A stretch of 20,219 nucleotides of DNA from a virus. The notes beneath the pieces were generated by a model. It was not told the DNA's origin and ran no database searches. It saw only the letters and a list, made by a program, of their open reading frames with translations. How positions within the stretch are numbered: position 1 is the first letter of the stretch; each line of letters opens with the position of its first letter. A program made the translations under genes and the position numbers. Of this stretch, positions 4,302 through 19,797 are shown one piece after another. Location of the stretch: IMG/VR virus record IMGVR_UViG_3300010883_000690, positions 1-20,219 of that record, one strand, 5' to 3'.

Positions 4302-7300
4302 TTAAGATTTAGGTTCTAAATACTCACTACTAAACTGATTTGGGTTTAGGTAAAACTTGTGTTCTTTCAAATTAGCGTCTAGTTGGTACTTAAGTATCTC
4401 ATAGTGTAAATGCACACCGTCCGAATATCCTGTAGTTCCCATAACACCTATTTTAGAACCTTTACTTACAGAAGTGCCCACACCACTACTAGTAATTGTT
4501 TTCTCTTTTATGTGTGCTATTCTAAATTGGTACCTGGTTACCGCCCCATCAACATACGAAGAAATATCTGAATTTTCTATTAGTGTTTTTTGTATCAATA
4601 AAGTATTTCCATAACCACCACCACATGATTTAGCGGTCTCAGAACTACCAGCTATACACCCTGACTTCTTGGTTATTATCACACCAGTCACTGGTGATAG
4701 TAAATCTATATCTGTTCCTTGGTATTCTGTTTTAGGTGAATAATCTATTCCTTTATGTTGTTTAGTCCCAACTATCTTATTGTCTTTGACTACATTTCTT
4801 TTTACCCAGAATTCTTGATTTGATTGTGGTTTATTAATTTTACTTAAAGTTACTGGGTCTACCATAGCGAAAGGAAGTGTACTTATATCATCTTCAACTG
4901 ATACCAAATTTACCTCTTCTGGTGGTGTTAAATCGAATGGGTCCAACGCGTTTGGGTTAGGGATTGTTTCCTCATCACCTAAATCATCGTCCATAGATTT
5001 AAGTAGTGTCTCTTGTATTGAAGCTATTAGGTCTGTTATTTGTGGCAAACTAGGTATACCCACTCTAACACCCGTAAATGTTGTTGTCATATCATTAGGT
5101 GTTATACTATGACTAACATCCATAATAAGATATGGACCACTAAACATAGGGACGTACCTTAGTTGGAAGTAGGTGGTAGGTTGTATTAGTGCGTTACCCA
5201 TAGACGTTACTTGGCACTTATAGGACCTAGATTTATATAAATTAAATAAGTTAAGCGAGTTGGTGGAAACTTTTGACCCACTTGCCATTTTACCCATGTC
5301 TTCTAGAATTCTAAAAGATTCACTGGTATTAGGGAATTCTGACTGGTCTAACGATAAACTCTCAAAAACATTTTGGTTTGGTATTCCGAAGTCTACCGCA
5401 AAAGCAACCACTTTATTGCTTAGATTTTTTTCTTCTTCCGTTTCTGGTACTCCTTGACATAGTGGGTTAGGGCTAACTCTATTTAGGACGAAAGAATCAT
5501 TATTATAACCATATTTAGGAGTTTTAACATCTAAACTGGTGGAAGGTGGGCCAATATATTGACAGAGGTATTTTGGTGAGGATAGTGTGTAGTCAACCTG
5601 TTTGAACGCTCCAAACATAGCATTTCCTTGCCCTTTAGTGTCGTGTTCTTCTATATTATAAAAATTAACATAAGATGGTAGTGGTATGAAATTAAAAAAG
5701 TTTTTACTACACAAATGACTTACAAAACCACCTATATTTTGTTTAACAGAAGTATTAGGGTTATCTGTGAATGGCGTATCTAACCCTAAAAACTGATATA
5801 TGTCAATAACCGCATCATTTCCAATATCTGCATTAGTTCTATCTAGAAACATAAATTTCTCAAACTGAGTATTATAATTAGGTAGACTACTAGTACTGGT
5901 AGACGACGGTTTACCCACTTCAGTATTTTGCACATCAGTACCAGCTATCCATTTATCATTAAATGTTTTAAACACTTGGTATAGTTCTAATTTTAAATTG
6001 TCTGAAACTACCTTAGGTCTATCATCACCGTCTTGGTCTGTACCACCATTTAAACCTTTCCTAGTGTCTATATTTTTTAGTGAGTTAAAAAATTTACCCA
6101 AATAAGCGTTGGTATACGAATCTATATTATCGAAGTATGTACGCATTCTAGTTTTAAAATCACTCTTGGTTATACCATTAGTGGCTGTTGATGTTGTCCT
6201 AAAAGTTTCAGTAAGGTACTGTTTTAAAATGGGCGCAAATTGTTGTACTAGTGATGGTGATATGTTAAAGTTAACAAAGAAGTCAAAACATATTTTAGAC
6301 GCATTTGTAAATTGTGTATTATCACCTACCGAAACAGATGGTATTACGTTTTGGGCGATTGCCGTTAAAAATGTGGCTGTTGGTGTTGGGTATATTGAAA
6401 TGTCGTATGGTGGTAAATCAATAAATTCCCCATCAGCTATCATATTAAAAATTAACTGTTTAGTAGAAACGGGTTCTGCATTTAAATACGTAAGTGTATC
6501 CCAACCATTTATTGACCCGTGTTTATAAATTATGTTTTGATTTAAGAATACCTTACCAATATTAAGAAACTTTTTATATTGTGCTTTCGCAATCTCTTGT
6601 GTTTTATGTGTTGGGTTGGTGTTACCGGGATTAGCCTTTAGGTCTCCATTAACACTCTTTTTATCCACAATCATTAACTCTTTAAAAATTGTTTTAAACT
6701 CTGTGAACTGACCTTCCACTATTTTCGCGTCTGGGTTTTTTGTTTCTGAAAAGTTTAGAAATTGCTTTTCAAACTCATCCAACACTTCGGTAGGAAACAC
6801 AGATAGTAGTTCTGTAAAATCATCATACGATGTGTTATTATTATCTGTATTATTTAGATTCCAAGCTTGTTGTTGTGGTGTTAGTGTGTCTATTCTCTTT
6901 GTATAATGACTTGCTGGTACCCTTCCATACATAGCACCGTACTTAAGAGGTACACTACCTGGTTGAGTTACGTCAAAAGCTCCGTAACCTGCTCCTGCCC
7001 ATAAAAATCTTGCACTACCATCAAACCCAGCAGTGTTTATATTGTCACCAATAAAACTTAAATCACTATTTACCAATGCACCCGTAGAAGGATATAGTAT
7101 ATAATAAGGGTCTGTGGCAGCATCTACATCGTCTAACCCCTTACCACCAATAGTAGCTGAATCTATAAAAGTTGTGTAAAAATTATAATCTAACCCACCC
7201 TTATGGAAGAAAAGACCTTCTTCTTTAACTAGGTCAATGTTGACAACACCAACAAACATGGCATTTACGTCCGCTACTGGGACCCAACTACCAACACCCG

Positions 7301-10300
7301 GTAAAATATTCTTACCAGTAACCACTGTGTGCACAACATCCATTAATCTAGGCCAAAATCCAAGTGTAACCTCAGTAGTGTTTAATCCGGGTATTATATT
7401 ACCATTATATGAATAATCATAAAACCCAAAACCATTTGCGTATGCTTGGTCTACATACCACTCACCACATCTCAAGGTACCGTCATTTCCTAATCCACCA
7501 CCATCACCCGCACCTAACCCACCAAAAACACTATTAGCTACAGGACCTTGTCCGTTTTTATAATTCCACCAAAGTGACCCAATTTTAAGAATAAAAGCAT
7601 ATGGTAATTCGTGGTAACCAGCTAATTGTTTTATTGCTTGAGCTACATACGCACCATACTGGTGTTTACCCTCGTATTTAGTTATAATTTTTTCTAAAGT
7701 ACTAGTTAACGGTAAAGAGTTTAAAAATAAGTATGCTGCCTCAGCATATGGTGCTGTTGTTGACGTACTTTCATTTACAAACCCTTTATAGATAGCATTT
7801 GCAAACCAAGGTGTGTTTAACATTGATACTACTTGTGAGTCAAAACTGTCTGAAGTGTAGTTCACTCCTTCTGTTAAAGATTGTAATTCTATACTATCTT
7901 CTTTAGTTTTATAAAAAGTATTCCAAGGGTCCCAATCAACTATTGGTTTAAAATTACTAATGTAGTCTAGGTCACCTTCTACAATCGTTCTAAGTTCTCC
8001 GTTTATAGTTTTTAAGTCCCAATTTAGATTACTAAAGTAAAAAGATTTACTGTCTTCATTATTTGGACTGGTCATGTAGACATTGGTTTGTGTACCCATT
8101 TGTAGAACGTCTATTTGGAAAAACTTTTCATTTGTTAGGTTAGCTGAGTCCGATAATTTACTTTTTAAATTATTTATATTAACTAAATTAAATGGGTAAA
8201 AATCATGCCACCAATCCTGGGTCTTTTTACTATCTAAAAATAATGTTAAGTATTTTAAATACTTACCACCCTCAGTGAATATGTCTTTAGCACTAGATTC
8301 TGGGTATAACCCATAATTTGTACCAGTTATGTCGTAAGGCTTGGTGGATATAGGGTTAAGGTATTGTGTGTTAACAAACCCCCTAAGATATAAGGCATAC
8401 TTATCTGGGGATTCAGTTATTAGTGTGGTTAATAGTGAGCTAAAATCAAGATTGTTATCTTTAAAAAATTCTTGTAAATCGTAATCACTTTCTACAGCTT
8501 TCATTAAATTTTTACTATCGTTATCCCCAGCCTCCAAAACTGTTTCTGTGATTTGAGTTACTTTGGATTTAAATCCGGTTATTCCCGCGTAACTTGTAAA
8601 ATCAAGTGCTCTATCTAATATTTCCCACAAAATTAAGTTTTTAACACTATTTTCATATGGTGTAGTTATAAAAGGAAATTGTCTTACCGATAAAGGTGTT
8701 TCTTTTGTATACCTAACTTCGTTAGATGTCGGGAATGTGACTTGTTTAGTTCTGGTATTTATAGCTTTTGTATATTCTTCTATAAAATGTACTTCGGGCC
8801 ATGCTTTCACATTTTCAGCGTTTGTTTCTGATAAACTACCTGAAGCTCCTGGGTACGTTAAAACATATCTATTTTCGTTATCGTCGTATTGGTAGTATTG
8901 TGGCCATGGGAAAACTTCTTTACTACCTTTCACACTATCTTCATACCCTTTTTTATTTGTTATAACAGCCTTTACCCTGTGTTGGTTTGTTTTTTCTTCC
9001 ATTGCTTGTGTATGGACCCTATCCAACAATCTTAAATAGGTATCCACACCACCAATCACAATAGCCATAAGATTTCTAATAGAAGGGTAAAAAGATAAAC
9101 TTTGTTCGAATATAGTTCTTAGTTTAAGATTGGATTCAGTTTGGATTTCTTTAAATTTTTTGTCAAACTCTTCCTTAATTCTACCATATACCCCACCAAA
9201 ACTTTTAGGTGAAAGGTCAAGAACATAATAACCTTTACCACCATCAGGTATTTTACTACTATTCTTACTGCTATTATTTTTAGCTTGTTGATTTTCTAAA
9301 CTGAAATCTTTTATTATATTAATAGGTGCCCTACCATTTAACCCAAAAGTTACATTTTCACTTAATATTTGTTTATAACCCTCTATCACATATTTCAATT
9401 TAGATTCAGCATTAACAATAGATTCGTCGTCTATAACTTTAAGAGGTAAAGCCTTTGCTACAACATTCTTACCTTGTGTGTTTGGGTTCCCTGTAGAACC
9501 TAAAGTCATAGGGAGAGGAAACCCACCACCTTTATTATCTAAAAACTTTTCCTTCCACTCAAGTATTGCGTTTCTAAAATTTATTAGTGTCTTCTGATAT
9601 TCTTTCTGGTCATTAGTAAATCTTAGGTCTGCTTTACTAAAATTCTTTTTTAAATTATCCGTAAACCCCTCCACCTTACCTATTAATTCAAATATTGTTA
9701 ATCTAGGAAAGTCTTTAGGTATTAATTTTTTTTTCTCGTATATATCATACACCTCCCCCATAACCTGCCTACCTAACCCACTAGGTGAGTTTATACTATC
9801 CGTTGTGGTCTTACCTTTAACCGTTGGGTATAGGTATGGGGCTAACATAGCTTGTTGTAGGTTAATATCATTTAACATTGCTATGTGATTACCTATAAAA
9901 GTAGCTGTAACGTTGTAATCTCCTGACTGAGCGTCAAAATTAGTATTAAACTGTGTTAAAGCTAGTTGGTACTTCACCGCCTTTCCGTAATACCCTTTGA
10001 CCGTTAGTTCAAATTGTGGGTATGGTAAATGAAAAAAAGCTGTGTATGGTGTGTTGGTTTCTGCTTGTTCAAAAAGGGTCATCCCCCTAACATCGGTAAA
10101 GTTTATTGTAACTTGTGGGACGAATGACGAACTTATTTTTATATCTATATTTGTTATTCCGAATCCTTGGAAGTCATTTTTGTTTTCTATAGTTTTACTA
10201 TAGAAGGTTTGTCCTTTATCGTCGGTATTTTCATCACGTTTTACCCTATTAACTGAAGGGTCTGTAAATGCGTCTGTCCAATCACTATCTAAAGATTTTT

Positions 10301-10571
10301 TATTTAACGGTTTTAAAAAATTTATTTCACCATTAAATAAGTCAACCATAACTCCACTATCTGAAGCTCCTTTTCCGTCTATTAATTTAGAACGAGGAAC
10401 TACTCTTGCTACTAAATTAATATAAATAACTAAATCTTCGTGCCTAACAAGTCTATCCTCAATGGTTTTCCCATCTGCACTTTCAATCTTATTAGGGTCT
10501 ATTAGTATTAAGTTGTCACAAATTTGTTGTGTGTAAACACTTTCACTACCACTAGTAATATCATCTGCCAT
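4302..10571 (-). CDS. giant baseplate hub protein with C-terminal M23 peptidase (tail lysin)
   Basis: 2089 aa, by far the largest gene. Residues about 133-250 hold a beta-rich module (DFQGFGITNIDIKISSSF, PYPQFELTVKGYYGKAVKY) of a type I associate with myovirus hub/baseplate proteins. Residues about 1721-1840 (VDFGIPNQNVFESLSLDQS, RSYKCQVTSMGNALIQP, YFQLRYVPMFSGPYLIMDVSH) look like the closing half of a tail-hub fold. After an acidic Pro-rich linker (about 1860-1910) comes an M23/LytM endopeptidase: HKGID (H1939, D1943), AHI (H2020) and HLH (H2054, H2056), the zinc and catalytic residues. It would cap the tail tube and cut peptidoglycan cross-links in the periplasm during injection, replacing T4 gp27 plus the gp5 lysozyme. 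The middle (about 250-1720) is not recognised. Two cysteines (1972, 1983) bracket a loop in the enzyme. It overlaps the gp53-like gene by 11 bases. Peptidase firm, hub role good. Confidence 0.85.
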   Translation of the reverse strand: MADDITSGSESVYTQQICDNLILIDPNKIESADGKTIEDRLVRHEDLVIYINLVARVVPRSKLIDGKGASDSGVMVDLFNGEINFLKPLNKKSLDSDWTDAFTDPSVNRVKRDENTDDKGQTFYSKTIENKNDFQGFGITNIDIKISSSFVPQVTINFTDVRGMTLFEQAETNTPYTAFFHLPYPQFELTVKGYYGKAVKYQLALTQFNTNFDAQSGDYNVTATFIGNHIAMLNDINLQQAMLAPYLYPTVKGKTTTDSINSPSGLGRQVMGEVYDIYEKKKLIPKDFPRLTIFELIGKVEGFTDNLKKNFSKADLRFTNDQKEYQKTLINFRNAILEWKEKFLDNKGGGFPLPMTLGSTGNPNTQGKNVVAKALPLKVIDDESIVNAESKLKYVIEGYKQILSENVTFGLNGRAPINIIKDFSLENQQAKNNSSKNSSKIPDGGKGYYVLDLSPKSFGGVYGRIKEEFDKKFKEIQTESNLKLRTIFEQSLSFYPSIRNLMAIVIGGVDTYLRLLDRVHTQAMEEKTNQHRVKAVITNKKGYEDSVKGSKEVFPWPQYYQYDDNENRYVLTYPGASGSLSETNAENVKAWPEVHFIEEYTKAINTRTKQVTFPTSNEVRYTKETPLSVRQFPFITTPYENSVKNLILWEILDRALDFTSYAGITGFKSKVTQITETVLEAGDNDSKNLMKAVESDYDLQEFFKDNNLDFSSLLTTLITESPDKYALYLRGFVNTQYLNPISTKPYDITGTNYGLYPESSAKDIFTEGGKYLKYLTLFLDSKKTQDWWHDFYPFNLVNINNLKSKLSDSANLTNEKFFQIDVLQMGTQTNVYMTSPNNEDSKSFYFSNLNWDLKTINGELRTIVEGDLDYISNFKPIVDWDPWNTFYKTKEDSIELQSLTEGVNYTSDSFDSQVVSMLNTPWFANAIYKGFVNESTSTTAPYAEAAYLFLNSLPLTSTLEKIITKYEGKHQYGAYVAQAIKQLAGYHELPYAFILKIGSLWWNYKNGQGPVANSVFGGLGAGDGGGLGNDGTLRCGEWYVDQAYANGFGFYDYSYNGNIIPGLNTTEVTLGFWPRLMDVVHTVVTGKNILPGVGSWVPVADVNAMFVGVVNIDLVKEEGLFFHKGGLDYNFYTTFIDSATIGGKGLDDVDAATDPYYILYPSTGALVNSDLSFIGDNINTAGFDGSARFLWAGAGYGAFDVTQPGSVPLKYGAMYGRVPASHYTKRIDTLTPQQQAWNLNNTDNNNTSYDDFTELLSVFPTEVLDEFEKQFLNFSETKNPDAKIVEGQFTEFKTIFKELMIVDKKSVNGDLKANPGNTNPTHKTQEIAKAQYKKFLNIGKVFLNQNIIYKHGSINGWDTLTYLNAEPVSTKQLIFNMIADGEFIDLPPYDISIYPTPTATFLTAIAQNVIPSVSVGDNTQFTNASKICFDFFVNFNISPSLVQQFAPILKQYLTETFRTTSTATNGITKSDFKTRMRTYFDNIDSYTNAYLGKFFNSLKNIDTRKGLNGGTDQDGDDRPKVVSDNLKLELYQVFKTFNDKWIAGTDVQNTEVGKPSSTSTSSLPNYNTQFEKFMFLDRTNADIGNDAVIDIYQFLGLDTPFTDNPNTSVKQNIGGFVSHLCSKNFFNFIPLPSYVNFYNIEEHDTKGQGNAMFGAFKQVDYTLSSPKYLCQYIGPPSTSLDVKTPKYGYNNDSFVLNRVSPNPLCQGVPETEEEKNLSNKVVAFAVDFGIPNQNVFESLSLDQSEFPNTSESFRILEDMGKMASGSKVSTNSLNLFNLYKSRSYKCQVTSMGNALIQPTTYFQLRYVPMFSGPYLIMDVSHSITPNDMTTTFTGVRVGIPSLPQITDLIASIQETLLKSMDDDLGDEETIPNPNALDPFDLTPPEEVNLVSVEDDISTLPFAMVDPVTLSKINKPQSNQEFWVKRNVVKDNKIVGTKQHKGIDYSPKTEYQGTDIDLLSPVTGVIITKKSGCIAGSSETAKSCGGGYGNTLLIQKTLIENSDISSYVDGAVTRYQFRIAHIKEKTITSSGVGTSVSKGSKIGVMGTTGYSDGVHLHYEILKYQLDANLKEHKFYLNPNQFSSEYLEPKS

Positions 10572-15034: not shown

Positions 15035-17248
15035 TTAACCTTCCGGTGTAGTAACCTTTAAACCAGCTAGACTCTTTCCTATGGATTGTATCACCGTTGG
15101 GTCTAACGCACTCATCAATTGTTTTGGTGTTAACCTTATTGTGTTACCATCATACATAATCTCTAATGGTGAAAATTTAACATTTATTGTATTTCCAACA
15201 GAATTACCTACATTTTGGTTTTGTTGGTTTTGTGGAAACACAGAAGGTGGATAACTACCTATATCGTTGGGTGGGTATGAGCCCCCATAGGCTCCACCTG
15301 AAGGTAGTTGATAACCTCCTTTTTCTTTTCCTTTTTGTGCGTTGTCTAAAGCTGTTGGGATACCCGAACCTTTCACTCCAGGTACTTTTTTTAAAAAGTT
15401 AGGGACAACATTAGCAAACTCACCTAATAACCCAATAAGATTTTGTTGGTCGGGTGGTAATGTTTTCCCCATTATTGGGTTACCTTGTGCGTCGACTTCC
15501 CCGGTATTATAATCAAACCCACCAGGTAATAAATCCCCAAGTCCTTCACCAACCAAATAACTACCTAATCCAGACTCAGCAAGTTCACCAGCAAAATCTT
15601 TTGCTGAAGACCCAAGTAACCCAGACGCTGCAGCTTGTGTCAACACCTGTTGTATAATTGCTGTGTTAGCTGCCATACCTTCTTGTACAGATAGTTGAGC
15701 TTTATTCACATCATCTAAATTCATATTTTCTTTTTCCGACTGTGTTCTAATTTTACTCAATAAAACAGTACTGTTTGACATGTGTGACCCTAACTCATCA
15801 AGAGATATTTTATCATCCCCAATAGATAATGAGAAATTTCCATCCATATCAATATCAGACATTGAAGCTATCAATTCTTTATCTTGTTCATTTAACTCTG
15901 GAATGCCACCCAGTTTTCCTATAGCTTGAGTTCTTTTTGCGGCCTTAATAGCCGTATCAGCAAGATTTGTATAGTCTTGTCCTGTAGCTTCAGCTACAGA
16001 TTTTAACCTCATTCTTTCACCTGGTGATATACCGAACTCTCCAGTTTCTTTATTAAACGTTACAGCACTTTCTGCTGTTTTTACAATTGCTTTTTGTAGT
16101 CCCTCAACATCATTTTGAGCCATATACATTAATTGAAATGGGTCTAGTAGTTCACTAGCTGCCCCTCCAATCATTTGTAATTGTGCTGCCATTTCAATCG
16201 CTCCTTCTGGTGTGAAAGCTTTATCCGCCATTGCCATTGCGTTTTCAAAATTATAACCCAACACCTGGGCTTTAGCAACCATCTCAGATAAACCAGCGAC
16301 ACCATTTTTGAAACCGTAAGTGTTTATTTTTGCAATATTATCCAAAACTGATGGTAATAATTTAGAAACTGTGGCTCCATATCTTCCTGCTGTAGCTACA
16401 GCTTCACTGGTAGTTCGTACAGCTTCCACAGACCCAGCACCAATTTTATCAAATTCTCTAAACACATTTGACATGTCCACATCATATAGTTCTTGTAGTT
16501 TTGCACCAGTAACTATCGCTTCGGTAGGTAATATAAACGCTCTACCCGTAGCCTCAGCGGTATCTTTTAATAACTCCATCGCGTCATTAGCTGTTAACGT
16601 CCAACCCGCAAACTCCCTAGATGCGGTAACAACTCCTTGAATAATGTCGTCCATGAAGACCTCATCCATCCCCATCACATTTATAATGTCCTTACGCATC
16701 TGGTCTGTAAGGGATAGGATTTGGATGTACGTACCTAACGCTTCTGTCTTCATATCAGCCCCTGACTTACCAGCTTTTAAGACATTGGTCATAGATTTCA
16801 TCATCATCATAGCTTGACCCATACTTAAATCAGCTTGACTTCTTGACTTAGATAGTTCATTTAAAACATTCCCCAAACTATCCGCTGCATTACCAGTGCT
16901 TTCCCAACCACCATTATCACCACTAGTGGGGTTCTTTCTGTTATATTCACGAACAGCTTTATTAAAACTCGCTTCGGTTACTTGAATATCTCCACCACCA
17001 GTTTTTTCTAGTGTGACTTGGAATGATGGTAGTGGGTTTTTTATACCTAGTTTATTTGCTAAAGTTAAAGATAGTTTACTTCCCTTTGGTCCTAATTTCT
17101 TGATGGATTTAATTCGAGAAGCGTGGTCTGGTTCGTCAAAAGTATTAAAAATACCTAAAGGCACTCCTAGTTCTGGATGTGAAGCTAAATAAGGTTTACC
17201 GTGTGATAGAAACCCCTCAATATAAAGTTGTTGCGTTAGATTAAACAT
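15035..17248 (-). CDS. tape measure protein (gp29-like)
   Basis: 737 aa, mostly helical with Ala/Met/Gly-rich stretches (MGQAMMMMKSMTNVLKAGKSG, NAMAMADKAFTPEGAIEMAAQLQMIGGAA). A segment at about 400-440 (FNKETGEFGISPGERMRLKSVAEATGQ) is of a kind seen in phage tape measure proteins. A Gly/Pro/Asn/Gln-rich spacer (about 630-680) leads to a compact C-terminal domain (KFSPLEIMYDGNTIRLTPKQLMSALD). Tape measures span the tube lumen and set tail length at roughly 1.5 angstrom per residue, which would give a tail near 110 nm. The position after the gp26-like assembly gene and before the tube initiator matches T4 gene 29. No long transmembrane segment is evident. Start at 17248: ATG with no Shine-Dalgarno sequence, 22 bases after the +1-frame ORF ends, with an ATATTTAT box in that gap. 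Confidence 0.75.
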   Translation of the reverse strand: MFNLTQQLYIEGFLSHGKPYLASHPELGVPLGIFNTFDEPDHASRIKSIKKLGPKGSKLSLTLANKLGIKNPLPSFQVTLEKTGGGDIQVTEASFNKAVREYNRKNPTSGDNGGWESTGNAADSLGNVLNELSKSRSQADLSMGQAMMMMKSMTNVLKAGKSGADMKTEALGTYIQILSLTDQMRKDIINVMGMDEVFMDDIIQGVVTASREFAGWTLTANDAMELLKDTAEATGRAFILPTEAIVTGAKLQELYDVDMSNVFREFDKIGAGSVEAVRTTSEAVATAGRYGATVSKLLPSVLDNIAKINTYGFKNGVAGLSEMVAKAQVLGYNFENAMAMADKAFTPEGAIEMAAQLQMIGGAASELLDPFQLMYMAQNDVEGLQKAIVKTAESAVTFNKETGEFGISPGERMRLKSVAEATGQDYTNLADTAIKAAKRTQAIGKLGGIPELNEQDKELIASMSDIDMDGNFSLSIGDDKISLDELGSHMSNSTVLLSKIRTQSEKENMNLDDVNKAQLSVQEGMAANTAIIQQVLTQAAASGLLGSSAKDFAGELAESGLGSYLVGEGLGDLLPGGFDYNTGEVDAQGNPIMGKTLPPDQQNLIGLLGEFANVVPNFLKKVPGVKGSGIPTALDNAQKGKEKGGYQLPSGGAYGGSYPPNDIGSYPPSVFPQNQQNQNVGNSVGNTINVKFSPLEIMYDGNTIRLTPKQLMSALDPTVIQSIGKSLAGLKVTTPEG

Positions 17249-17270: not shown

Positions 17271-17447
17271 TTACCTTCTACTTTTATTACGAGCTTGTTC
17301 TGTTGCTTGATTTTTTTTCTCTTTTTCCTCCACTAATTTGTCTAAATAAAAACGCCTTTCGAATATTGGCATGTTCATAATGTCAGCTCTGGTAAAATTA
17401 AAATTTCTTGCTAGGTGATAAATCTCTTCCAACAGGGCATACCTATA
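17271..17447 (-). CDS. ATG-less +1-phase ORF, gp51/tail-chaperone-like extension
   Basis: Directly after the gp26-like stop, the frame shifted by +1 is open for 66 codons (stop TAA at 17273-17271; in-frame TGA upstream at 17474-17472). From codon TAT at 17447 it reads YRYALLEEIYHLARNFNFTRADIMNMPIFERRFYLDKL and then a Lys/Glu/Gln-rich helix ending in KSRR. The L-x-x-I-x-x-L-A... D-I-M-x-M-P-x-x-E-R-R-x-Y pattern is what tail assembly chaperone C-terminal regions look like, and T4 places gene 51 exactly here. The frame has no ATG before residue M32 of the open frame; CTG (17435) or TTG (17432) could start it. Alternatively +1 frameshifting would join it to the gp26-like protein as FFRPFFG-YRYALLEE, about 309 aa in all. 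That it is coding is fairly secure; how it is started is open. Confidence 0.65.
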   Translation of the reverse strand, partial: YRYALLEEIYHLARNFNFTRADIMNMPIFERRFYLDKLVEEKEKKNQATEQARNKSRR

Positions 17448-18201
17448 GCCCGAAGAAAGGACGAAAAAAGTTCAAACCAAAATTAATGTCATAGGGAACA
17501 TCAACACCTGATGGTGATTTTGCTACTTTACCAACATCTAACCCAGGTTCTACTGATTTTAAAAACTTTTTAATGTCTTGTGCGTCTTTTAGTGGTAAGG
17601 TGTGGATTGCGTTAGACAACATGATAGGGTCTCTTTCACCATCCAGTTCTATAACAGATTTTTCCAATCGTTTTGTCGCCATTGGTTTAATCTTCATGTC
17701 TTTGTAACTTTGTTCTAATTCTGAAAGAATTTTGGTGTCTTCCGGTGATAGTAATCTTAGTTTACATTTTTTACCTGATGTGGGTAGGAGATAGTCGAAT
17801 AACCCTTCGTTATCTGGTTTCACACTAATTTCTTTAGTCTTTAAAACTGATAGGTCTTCAGTATGTTCAAATTCCTTACTAGTTTCAGGGTCAACTAATT
17901 TAAATGTATAACTAGGCCCAAAAGCTGTATTTCTTAAGAATACAAAAATAGCTTGTTTATCACATTCAGCTAAATTCTTAACAACAACATCTTTATCTAG
18001 TACTTTTTGTGATAATAATGTGTCCATAAGTTCTCCAGACTCAGATAGGTTAGGTGAAGTTAGAATATTTTCATCAGCCGCTGTTAAGTAAGCTACCTTT
18101 AAAGTTTTTTTCTTATTTTTGTAAAAAATCCCTTGTGAAGGTAATACTACAATATCGTATGGGATGTTAGGTGTGATTTCTGGTGTTTGTAAGTTTTCCA
18201 T
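17443..18201 (-). CDS. gp26-like baseplate hub assembly protein
   Basis: 252 aa. The N-terminal half carries the marks of the T4 gp26-type baseplate family: DIVVLPSQGIFYKNKKKTLKVAYLTAADENILTSPN (about 17-50), then a helical region (ESGELMDTLLSQKVLDKDVVVKNLAECDKQAIFVFLRNTAFGPSYTF) and beta strands. The family's usual closing pattern, hydrophobic strand plus FFxP, is present (VDVPYDINFGLNFFRPFF). gp26 acts in hub assembly and is not a major virion part. The reading frame ends FRPFFGL-stop, and the +1 frame carries on with a chaperone-like sequence, so this may be the short form of a short/long pair. Its leader (18202-18294) is A/T-rich with no Shine-Dalgarno sequence. It lies after the tail tube terminator, so it probably has its own promoter, which I cannot place with confidence. 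Confidence 0.78.
   Translation of the reverse strand: MENLQTPEITPNIPYDIVVLPSQGIFYKNKKKTLKVAYLTAADENILTSPNLSESGELMDTLLSQKVLDKDVVVKNLAECDKQAIFVFLRNTAFGPSYTFKLVDPETSKEFEHTEDLSVLKTKEISVKPDNEGLFDYLLPTSGKKCKLRLLSPEDTKILSELEQSYKDMKIKPMATKRLEKSVIELDGERDPIMLSNAIHTLPLKDAQDIKKFLKSVEPGLDVGKVAKSPSGVDVPYDINFGLNFFRPFFGL
17446..17471 (-). other. candidate +1 ribosomal frameshift window
   Basis: These 26 bases are the only stretch where both the gp26-like frame and the downstream +1 frame are open. Two places could slip. Near 17468-17463 the zero-frame codons TTT-TTT-CGT allow tRNA-Phe to move forward one base onto TTC before a possibly slow CGT codon. Near 17451 the codons GGG-CTA-TAG precede the stop, and a forward slip on GGG/GGC yields FFG-YRYALLEE, the most natural-looking junction. 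A GGGC/GCCC inverted repeat (17451-17448 with 17438-17435) surrounds the stop codon. No mechanism is proven; a one-base insertion error would produce the same picture. Confidence 0.35.
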
Positions 18202-18341: not shown

Positions 18342-18830
18342 TTAGTATACTAAGATACATCTATCCGGTCTTAATGTTGCTGCTATATTTGCCATACCTT
18401 CATCACTATAAGATAGGTCGTTAAAATTTACGTCAGTTAAGAAACAACCCTGTAGTATCCATTTTTCAACCACAACACCAGTAGGGTCTAACATCTCTAA
18501 ATCTATATTCTTTTTATATCCTGCCGCATAACCCATTCTACCCGTAACAGACTCAGCATGTAACCTTACCCATTCCATCAATGCTTGTGAAGCTGATGGT
18601 CCGATTGGGTCTCTAAACGTTACGTTAATTGTACCCCAAACAAATCTACCAGCCACATAAGTTGATGTGTTTAAGAATGGTATTTCTACAGAACCTATTG
18701 TAACTTGTGGTCTTGATGTACTTTCTACGTACCACTCGTTAATCCCTAAAGAAGAATCAAATCTCATTATAAACCTATTCTTTTTCTTTGGTTCGTAAGG
18801 TACGGGCATTTTCATTAATAAATCGGCCAT
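18342..18830 (-). CDS. tail tube protein (gp19-like)
   Basis: 162 aa, almost the same length as T4 gp19 (163). The content fits the gp19 tube family: an N-terminal PYEPKKKNRFIMRFDS strand, WYVESTSRPQVTIGSVEIPFLNTSTYVAGRFVWGTINVTFRDPIG (about 33-77), a helix with ALMEWVRLHAES, GYAAGYKKNIDLEMLDPTGVVVEKWILQGCFLTDVNFNDLSY, and a closing strand with ATLRPDRC. Rings of this protein stack into the channel for DNA delivery inside the contractile sheath. The gene stands alone between a 105-base leader and a strong terminator, consistent with high independent expression. The leader is nearly pure A/T just before the ATG, with no Shine-Dalgarno sequence. The sheath gene is not within the window; in T4 it precedes 19. 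Confidence 0.88.
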   Translation of the reverse strand: MADLLMKMPVPYEPKKKNRFIMRFDSSLGINEWYVESTSRPQVTIGSVEIPFLNTSTYVAGRFVWGTINVTFRDPIGPSASQALMEWVRLHAESVTGRMGYAAGYKKNIDLEMLDPTGVVVEKWILQGCFLTDVNFNDLSYSDEGMANIAATLRPDRCILVY

Positions 18831-18936: not shown

Positions 18937-19797
18937 TTACTCACTTACTTTAGATACAATAATTTTATTCTTTTCTCCTTGTGATGTGTCATATATGAAA
19001 AATTCGACATCTGGGTATTCGATACTTAGTTCATTCCTAATAAACTCCATCACAGCATCTATATTTCTTCTGTCATCATCACTAAACCCTATTGTCAATC
19101 TATCGTACTCACCACTAGTTAATTTTTCAGCCCCATTAACAACCCTCTTAACGTAATCCCTTAACGCTATTTTTTTCCCTTCTTCAGGTCTATCAGCGTT
19201 ACTGTCCATACCAAACTTCTCTTTAAATTCATTAGAAGAAACAGCTGAGTAGTCATTTTCTGACAAATAGAAGTCTATTTTTTCTTCTAATGACATGTCT
19301 ATTGTAGACGGGTAAGCACTTTCTATATTCCCCACCATAGTATCTACTTCATTAGTAGTGAAAGTGGTTCCTATTACCATTCTAACCCCCTCTTTAATAG
19401 CATGGGACGGTGTACCCCTAGCTGTAATAATAGAAAATGGGTTAGCGTTTATTAACGATTCTTTAAGTTTTTCAAAGCTTGGTGCAAATTTTTCATTTTC
19501 TATCGCCTTTCTAACATCACTAATAAATGTTTGTGGGTCTTCAAAATCCATAAATGCATGGTCAGTTAATCTATAGTCAGAATCATTTCTTAATTCTGCA
19601 AAATCTTCAGTACTTACATTTATCGGAACCCACACTAAAGATTCCTTTTTTTCCATTTTTATTTTGGTGGGCATAAATAATATATTATCATCCCAATCAA
19701 AAGAGTAACCTCTAATATTGCCATCAACCATAACCTCCCCAATTTCGTTAATTAGTGAGGTTAATTGTTTTTCAGTTAAAATTAAATTTCTTGTCAT
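18937..19797 (-). CDS. HAD-superfamily phosphatase-like protein
   Basis: 286 aa. HAD motifs are in order: motif I YSFDWDDNIL (nucleophile D34, acid D36), motif II FSIITARG (T125), a lysine in the EGKKIALRDY helix (about 207-214, motif III), and motif IV IGFSDDDRRN (D240-D242). The cap region between 40 and 120 carries aromatic and acidic residues. The first 20 residues (LILTEKQLTSLINEI) form a short amphipathic helix before the catalytic domain. HAD phosphatases of this kind remove phosphate from nucleotides, polynucleotide ends or small molecules; the substrate cannot be told. T4's PseT/Pnkp phosphatase domain is one analogue, but no kinase domain is present. It sits between a terminator and the tail tube gene, so it may be co-transcribed with the tube by read-through. 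Confidence 0.78.
   Translation of the reverse strand: MTRNLILTEKQLTSLINEIGEVMVDGNIRGYSFDWDDNILFMPTKIKMEKKESLVWVPINVSTEDFAELRNDSDYRLTDHAFMDFEDPQTFISDVRKAIENEKFAPSFEKLKESLINANPFSIITARGTPSHAIKEGVRMVIGTTFTTNEVDTMVGNIESAYPSTIDMSLEEKIDFYLSENDYSAVSSNEFKEKFGMDSNADRPEEGKKIALRDYVKRVVNGAEKLTSGEYDRLTIGFSDDDRRNIDAVMEFIRNELSIEYPDVEFFIYDTSQGEKNKIIVSKVSE

Follow-up and report, generated by a model that had tools for sequence, protein, structure and literature searches.

Frameshift recoding of the tail assembly chaperone gene is known in the contractile-tail phages P2 and Mu. In phage lambda, the short and long forms gpG and gpGT are made from one start, ribosomes shifting frame late in the short open reading frame (ORF) to read the C-terminal extension of the long form, and the gene lies between those of the tail tube and the tape measure protein, as in Mu, P2 (E/E′) and HK97. 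Here we describe a gene with this layout in IMG/VR virus record IMGVR_UViG_3300010883_000690, positions 1 to 20,219 (the window, meaning the whole stretch of 20,219 nucleotides analyzed), where a gp26-like ORF runs into a gp51-like domain that is open in the +1 frame. The locus very probably encodes a T4-type version of lambda G/GT, made by programmed +1 ribosomal frameshifting on UUU_CGU.

Tail chaperones made by frameshifting occur widely, the shift being −1, −2 or +1 depending on the phage (PMC5009743); that of lambda is −1 and that of Mu −2 (PMC5009743). A −1 shift at GTTTTT has been proposed for the Vandenendeviridae (PMC12846349). The Listeria phages PSA and A118 likewise use +1 frameshifting in structural genes, but at CCC, a proline codon beside a stop or pseudoknot, and in a gene other than the chaperone (PMC5009743). 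The P-site/A-site pair UUU_CGU, with a +1 shift and a rare A-site Arg codon, also occurs in influenza A PA-X (UCC_UUU_CGU), as given in the entry for Firth et al. 2012 listed in PMC5009743, although that is an unrelated gene of a eukaryotic virus; its shift occurs at a very low level, without an evident stimulator (PMC5009743).

The window phage is T4-related, with uvsX-like, gp32-like and gp19-like genes. The N- and C-terminal parts of its chaperone locus are homologous to T4 gp26 and gp51 (phrog_150 and phrog_634), but unlike in T4 they form one gene with a predicted +1 shift. Unlike the −1 and −2 shifts of lambda and Mu, the predicted shift is +1 on UUU_CGN, and unlike in lambda-type chaperones the N-terminal protein is gp26-like, with no sequence similarity to solved chaperones. 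The T4-like chaperones gp26 and gp51 are reportedly the subject of a 2022 study by Vladimirov, Gautam and Davidson (Virology 566:9-15), whose title is said to announce a mechanism other than frameshifting. As summarized in PMC10885494, that study describes, for some T4-like phages, a short gene and a separate fused long one, while according to PMC12846349 it reported poly-T −1 signals in T4-like phages. Frameshifted tail chaperones are already known; the +1 UUU_CGN variant appears to be unreported in the literature surveyed, which did not extend to the 2022 study.

A gp51-like extension in the +1 frame is conserved among relatives

The elements of the junction are as follows.

17443..18201, minus strand: gp26-like ORF, the predicted short form of a tail assembly chaperone, 252 aa, zero frame, ending in TAG (phrog_150; PF12322; model versus 2ob9)
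17443..17445, minus strand: zero-frame stop TAG of the short form, whose position relative to the site differs among relatives (locus comparison)
17271..17471, minus strand: open +1 frame, stop to stop with the stop included, 66 aa, TFFVLSSGYRYALLEEIYHLARNF... (direct reading)
17274..17462, minus strand: +1-frame extension of the predicted long form (VLSSGYRYALLEEIYHLARNF...), a gp51/DUF6760-like helical domain (+1 in 250/252 loci; PF20546; phrog_150 match of the fused protein; model)
17461..17469, minus strand: putative shift site TTT TTT CGT (YTT then C/T in 182 dereplicated +1 loci except L083; rare CGN in the clade)
17452..17460, minus strand: conserved CCT TTC TTC after the site, whose wobble bases are the middle bases of CTT (Leu), TCT and TCG (Ser) in the +1 frame

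The gp26-like ORF ends ...GLN FFRPFFGL-TAG, and its junction on the minus strand reads GGT TTG AAC TTT TTT CGT CCT TTC TTC GGG CTA TAG. It overlaps the +1 frame by 26 bases plus the stop codon. Within the window, the +1 frame has no ATG before DIMNMP, and its earliest TTG already falls within the conserved domain. The preliminary description, made from the window alone, had given the same C-terminus, overlap and lack of a usable ATG, and had proposed a +1 recoding event that fuses the two parts.

The relatives bear this proposal out. Loci were collected by IMG/VR scans with the gp26-like protein and two alignments, by a scan of bacterial and archaeal genomes and from isolate phages, giving 252 loci with profile matches to both the gp26-like and gp51-like parts. 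The gp51-like part lies in the +1 frame in 250 of the 252 (182 of 184 after dereplication at 90% amino acid identity, 42 of 44 at 60%). In the two exceptions, L087 (a T4-like phage of Vibrio) and L088 (a jumbo phage, uncultured), the parts are paired in the other frame. The +1 phase is common to the isolate genomes of Microcystis phage Mel-JY01 and Flavobacterium phage immuto. Overlap phase and slip codons are thus kept, conservation does not extend to any start codon that a separate gene would need, and the +1-frame residues F-[VAG]-L-S-S-x-Y-R start upstream of the zero-frame stop and run across it. Because this type of signal is retained in about 180 distinct related phages, comparison of their sequences identifies the +1 layout as a genuine coding device rather than a sequencing artifact. 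Deposited isolate genomes annotate two genes or a truncated fragment, the long form having been missed by gene callers.

A chromosome contig labeled candidate division WOR-3 (L274, 6844-12763) carries a sheath gene, a small ORF and a T4_baseplate-type gene with TTT TTT TGG CCT and a +1 extension, followed by a 633-aa ORF, with ordinary sugar-metabolism genes close by; it may be a prophage remnant or a contractile injection system with the same +1 site. Six further loci, mostly on Bacteroidales metagenome-assembled genome contigs (L169, L173, L175, L176, L180 and L181), have gp26-like genes without the FF-x-P site or the gp51-like extension, and a long ORF directly follows the gp26-like gene, a different expression layout in the same family.

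The putative shift site and its codon selection

The near-constant element of the junction, at one fixed codon, is YTT with C or T as the next base, the sole exception among the 182 dereplicated +1 loci being L083 (TTT CTA TTC). In the window's clade it takes the form TTT TTT CGN CCT (TTT_CGN in 98 loci); deeper phages have TTT TTT TGG CCT, TTT CTT TGG CCT, TTT CTT TAC CCT or TTT TTT TTC CCT. The P-site tRNA could re-pair one base along in every YTT form (UUU to UUC, UUU to UUU, and CUU to UUU), the last as in RF2. Even variants with a broken T run, TTC TTT CGC TTT TTC in L106, which has no Pro codon, and TTC TTT CGG in L145 and L147, remain open in +1. The site is fixed across lineages, while the zero-frame stop moves.

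In the window, the predicted slip codon is the second TTT (17466-17464), the re-pairing triplet TTC (17465-17463) and the A-site codon CGT (17463-17461). An in-frame TTT-CGN occurs once in the 5,880 codons of eleven window ORFs, at this junction. With the shift at the second TTT, the predicted product reads ...GLNFF-VLSSGYRYALLEE.... The fusion envisaged in the preliminary description therefore stands, whereas its join near the stop (FFRPFFG-YRYALLEE) has to be moved about five codons upstream.

Arginine codon choice sets the A site apart. Among the 98 dereplicated members of the CGN clade, it is CGG in 35, CGT in 32, CGC in 28 and CGA in 3, and never AGA or AGG, whereas the 801 Arg codons elsewhere in the same genes comprise 630 AGA (79%), 71 AGG, 55 CGT, 42 CGA, 3 CGG and no CGC. 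CGC or CGG thus fills 63 of 98 A sites versus 3 of 801 other positions; the Fisher p of about 1e-67 treats the sequences as independent, which it overstates because they are related. Reducing the set to the 27 sequences of the 60% level leaves a strong excess. CGN makes up 15 of the window's 164 Arg codons.

Constraint extends downstream of the site. Clade members have CCT in 92 of 97 and TTC in 97 of 97 cases, versus backgrounds of 34% and 19%, and the deeper group is biased toward CCT and GAC. The biased bases of CCT, TTC and GAC fall where +1 codons for Leu and Ser/Thr have their second base, which suggests that +1 translation begins before CCT and places the slip at YTT. Upstream, GGG is preferred for the Gly three codons before the first TTT, in 87 of 97 CGN and 36 of 60 TGG sequences versus about 10% and 8% elsewhere. 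An RF2-like Shine-Dalgarno stimulator was considered and rejected: the GGG of the relatives lies 9 nt before the slip codon, compared with an RF2 spacing of about 3 nt, and the window has GGT there. By its signature, the site is very probably a programmed +1 site of the UUU_CGN type, with a slip-prone P-site codon and a rare A-site codon, conserved beyond what the protein would need.

Domains of the predicted short and long forms

The short form matches the phrog_150 baseplate hub family with an E value of 1.8e-8 (35.1 bits), and the match improves to 8e-13 (49.4 bits) for the fused protein, covering residues 11-295, nearly its full length. The short form also matches PF12322 (T4_baseplate; E 2.5e-4, 21.2 bits, cut-off 24.5), and the gp51-like domain matches PF20546 (DUF6760; E 1.3e-3, 19.2 bits, cut-off 27) and phrog_634 (E 0.004). 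A scan for DUF6760 across about 200 genomes from a single phylum returned two matches, one of which is an in-frame fusion; in this Bacteroidota locus (L276), both domains occupy one uninterrupted ORF behind a gp19-like tube gene. Such fusion supports the two domains belonging to one protein.

The two parts were modeled separately, with pLDDT values of 88.6 for the short form and 90 for the gp51-like domain, whose first modeled helix starts before the zero-frame stop. The top solved-structure match of the short-form model (residues 132-220) is the HK97 tail assembly chaperone (2ob9_B; Z 5.6, rmsd 3.2 over 79 residues), and its matches among viral protein structures include many T4-like baseplate hub (gp26) proteins. 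Searches of the gp26-like proteins by sequence against solved structures returned nothing significant.

The gene lies, on the minus strand, in the order tail tube, chaperone, tape measure, the tube being assigned by profile and the tape measure by position and a relative's annotation.

18342..18830, minus strand: tail tube gene (gp19-like), upstream of the chaperone gene (phrog_4542 tail tube, E 2e-30; Pfam Phage_T4_gp19, E 1e-4, under its cut-off)
15035..17248, minus strand: probable tape measure protein gene, 737 aa, next downstream (position; the gene at the same place in Flavobacterium phage immuto is annotated tail tape measure protein)

Pfam and PHROG profile scans gave the probable tape measure gene no family match of its own. 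Because the modest HK97 fold match coincides with this gene order, a tail assembly chaperone is the best functional reading. The gp26-like protein is thus most likely a chaperone of the gpG/gpGT kind, as judged from the model and its position, rather than the structural hub named in the preliminary description.

Elsewhere on the minus strand of the window, a 286-aa protein without a family match adjoins the tube gene (18937-19797) and has an aspartate-rich motif (SFDWDDNILFMPT) reminiscent of HAD phosphatases. A 2089-aa ORF in the baseplate region (4302-10571), with an M23 peptidase domain at its end, is probably a large fused hub or tail lysin protein, and a phage-encoded FKBP-type prolyl isomerase (775-1245) overlaps the end of the uvsX-like gene.

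Alternative explanations and proposed mechanism

That the extra base is a sequencing error, or the mark of a degraded gene, could be entertained for a single contig read alone, but the +1 phase recurs in hundreds of independently assembled relatives and in isolate genomes, with both parts conserved at the protein level, and we consider this explanation almost certainly wrong. Two separate genes would also account for the layout, the gp51-like ORF being translated either from a start codon other than ATG or, close to the gp26-like stop, by termination-coupled reinitiation. A TTG, GTG or ATG is present somewhere in the +1 frame near the junction in many loci, T4-like relatives of KVP40 have a real TAATG overlap, and deposited annotations treat the parts as separate. 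However, when all +1 ORFs were searched for these three codons, the candidates were not conserved in place, and 46 of the 182 dereplicated loci have none between the opening of the +1 frame and a point some eight codons beyond the slip codon, before the conserved domain. The conserved +1 residues upstream of the zero-frame stop also speak for continuous reading, and reinitiation would leave the codon selection at TTT CGN unexplained. We regard separate genes as very unlikely.

Other routes into the +1 frame are conceivable: ribosomes might slip by −2, as they do in phage Mu, or on the CCU codon, or the T run might cause slippage during transcription. Most loci have T6 or T7, nearly all conserve CCT, and Listeria phage PSA is known to shift +1 at a proline codon (PMC5009743). 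CCU is nevertheless rejected as the slip site because CCT is not constant, L106 having no Pro codon, L093, L094, L097 and L108 having CCC and L096 CCA; nor would slippage there predict a rare CGN codon. Transcriptional slippage is hard to square with the TTC TTT CGN and TTT CTT TGG variants, in which the T run is broken into runs of three. As a group, these routes appear very unlikely.

Several points nonetheless weigh against programmed +1 frameshifting. A −2 shift also reaches the same frame, although it is disfavored because of mispairing in the TTC TTT CGN variants (L106, L145 and L147). The window has GGT where relatives commonly carry GGG, and downstream RNA structure is not evident (mean z about −0.8). 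The Pfam matches of both halves fall under the curated cut-offs, and the Z of 5.6 to 2ob9_B is modest, Foldseek alone giving E 1.8. The relatives are mostly metagenomic contigs with common ancestry, and their counts are not independent events. Finally, the long form is a predicted product, read from sequence alone.

Considered together, these data remain most consistent with programmed +1 frameshifting, and we infer a ribosomal shift with the following mechanics and rate. Most ribosomes would continue in the zero frame to the TAG and release the short gp26-like chaperone. A minority would pause with tRNA-Phe on the second UUU and the rare CGU codon in the A site; the tRNA-Phe would then re-pair on UUC, one base along, and reading would resume at GUC CUU UCU..., so that a helical gp51-like domain of 63 residues is added to make the long form. 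If the division of labor resembles that of lambda gpG/gpGT, the short form would cover the tape measure protein, and the long form, the rarer of the two, would bring in subunits of the tail tube.

A mirror-image site in T4-like phages

Nine T4-like phages were compared with the window lineage (KVP40, F86, 1.081.O, P-HM2, S-SM2, Bellamy, S-CAM1, AsFcp_4 and Yut3). In each of them gp26 closes with NNT TTT TTC GNN stop, and from there the −1 frame is open and encodes the homologous C-terminal domain. A profile of this T4-like domain matches the gp51-like domain of the window with E 9e-7 in a small set. The string at the end of gp26 is TTTTTTCG (or TTTTTTCGT; one has TTTTTTCGA). The two groups thus have the same string, TTTTTTCG, and a C-terminal domain that is homologous between them and out of frame with gp26, but with the frames swapped: in the T4-like phages gp26 reads NNT TTT TTC GNN, a canonical −1 heptamer, and the extension is −1, whereas in the window lineage gp26 reads TTT TTT CGN and the extension is +1. 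These strings and frames are read directly.

The −1 and +1 sites may be of common descent. Tentatively, and at somewhat less than even probability, one ancestral string TTTTTTCG could have been used both ways, for −1 on T_TTT_TTC in the T4-like phages and for +1 on TTT_TTT_C in the window lineage, with the frames of gp26 and gp51 exchanged and a rare CGN codon recruited in the +1 lineage to drive the shift.

In L265, L085, L087 and L266-L271, T4-like loci where gp26 ends T TTT TTC and the gp51-like domain is open in −1, the domain is annotated as a separate short gp51, as a hypothetical protein or not at all.

Discussion

The preliminary description considered recoding at this place unusual for a contractile-tail phage. 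Such recoding is known for P2 and Mu and reported for the Vandenendeviridae, and KVP40 and T4-like cyanophages show a −1 counterpart. Frameshifting in tail assembly chaperone genes is among the most widely shared phage recoding events, and T4-type phages have been reported as departing from it. A large and mostly uncultured set of T4-related phages nevertheless appears to use a +1 shift, at a compact site that is clearly marked by rare codons and lacks evident RNA structure. If the swapped-frame relation to the T4-like −1 site is true, an evolutionary switch in the direction of frameshifting would become directly testable.
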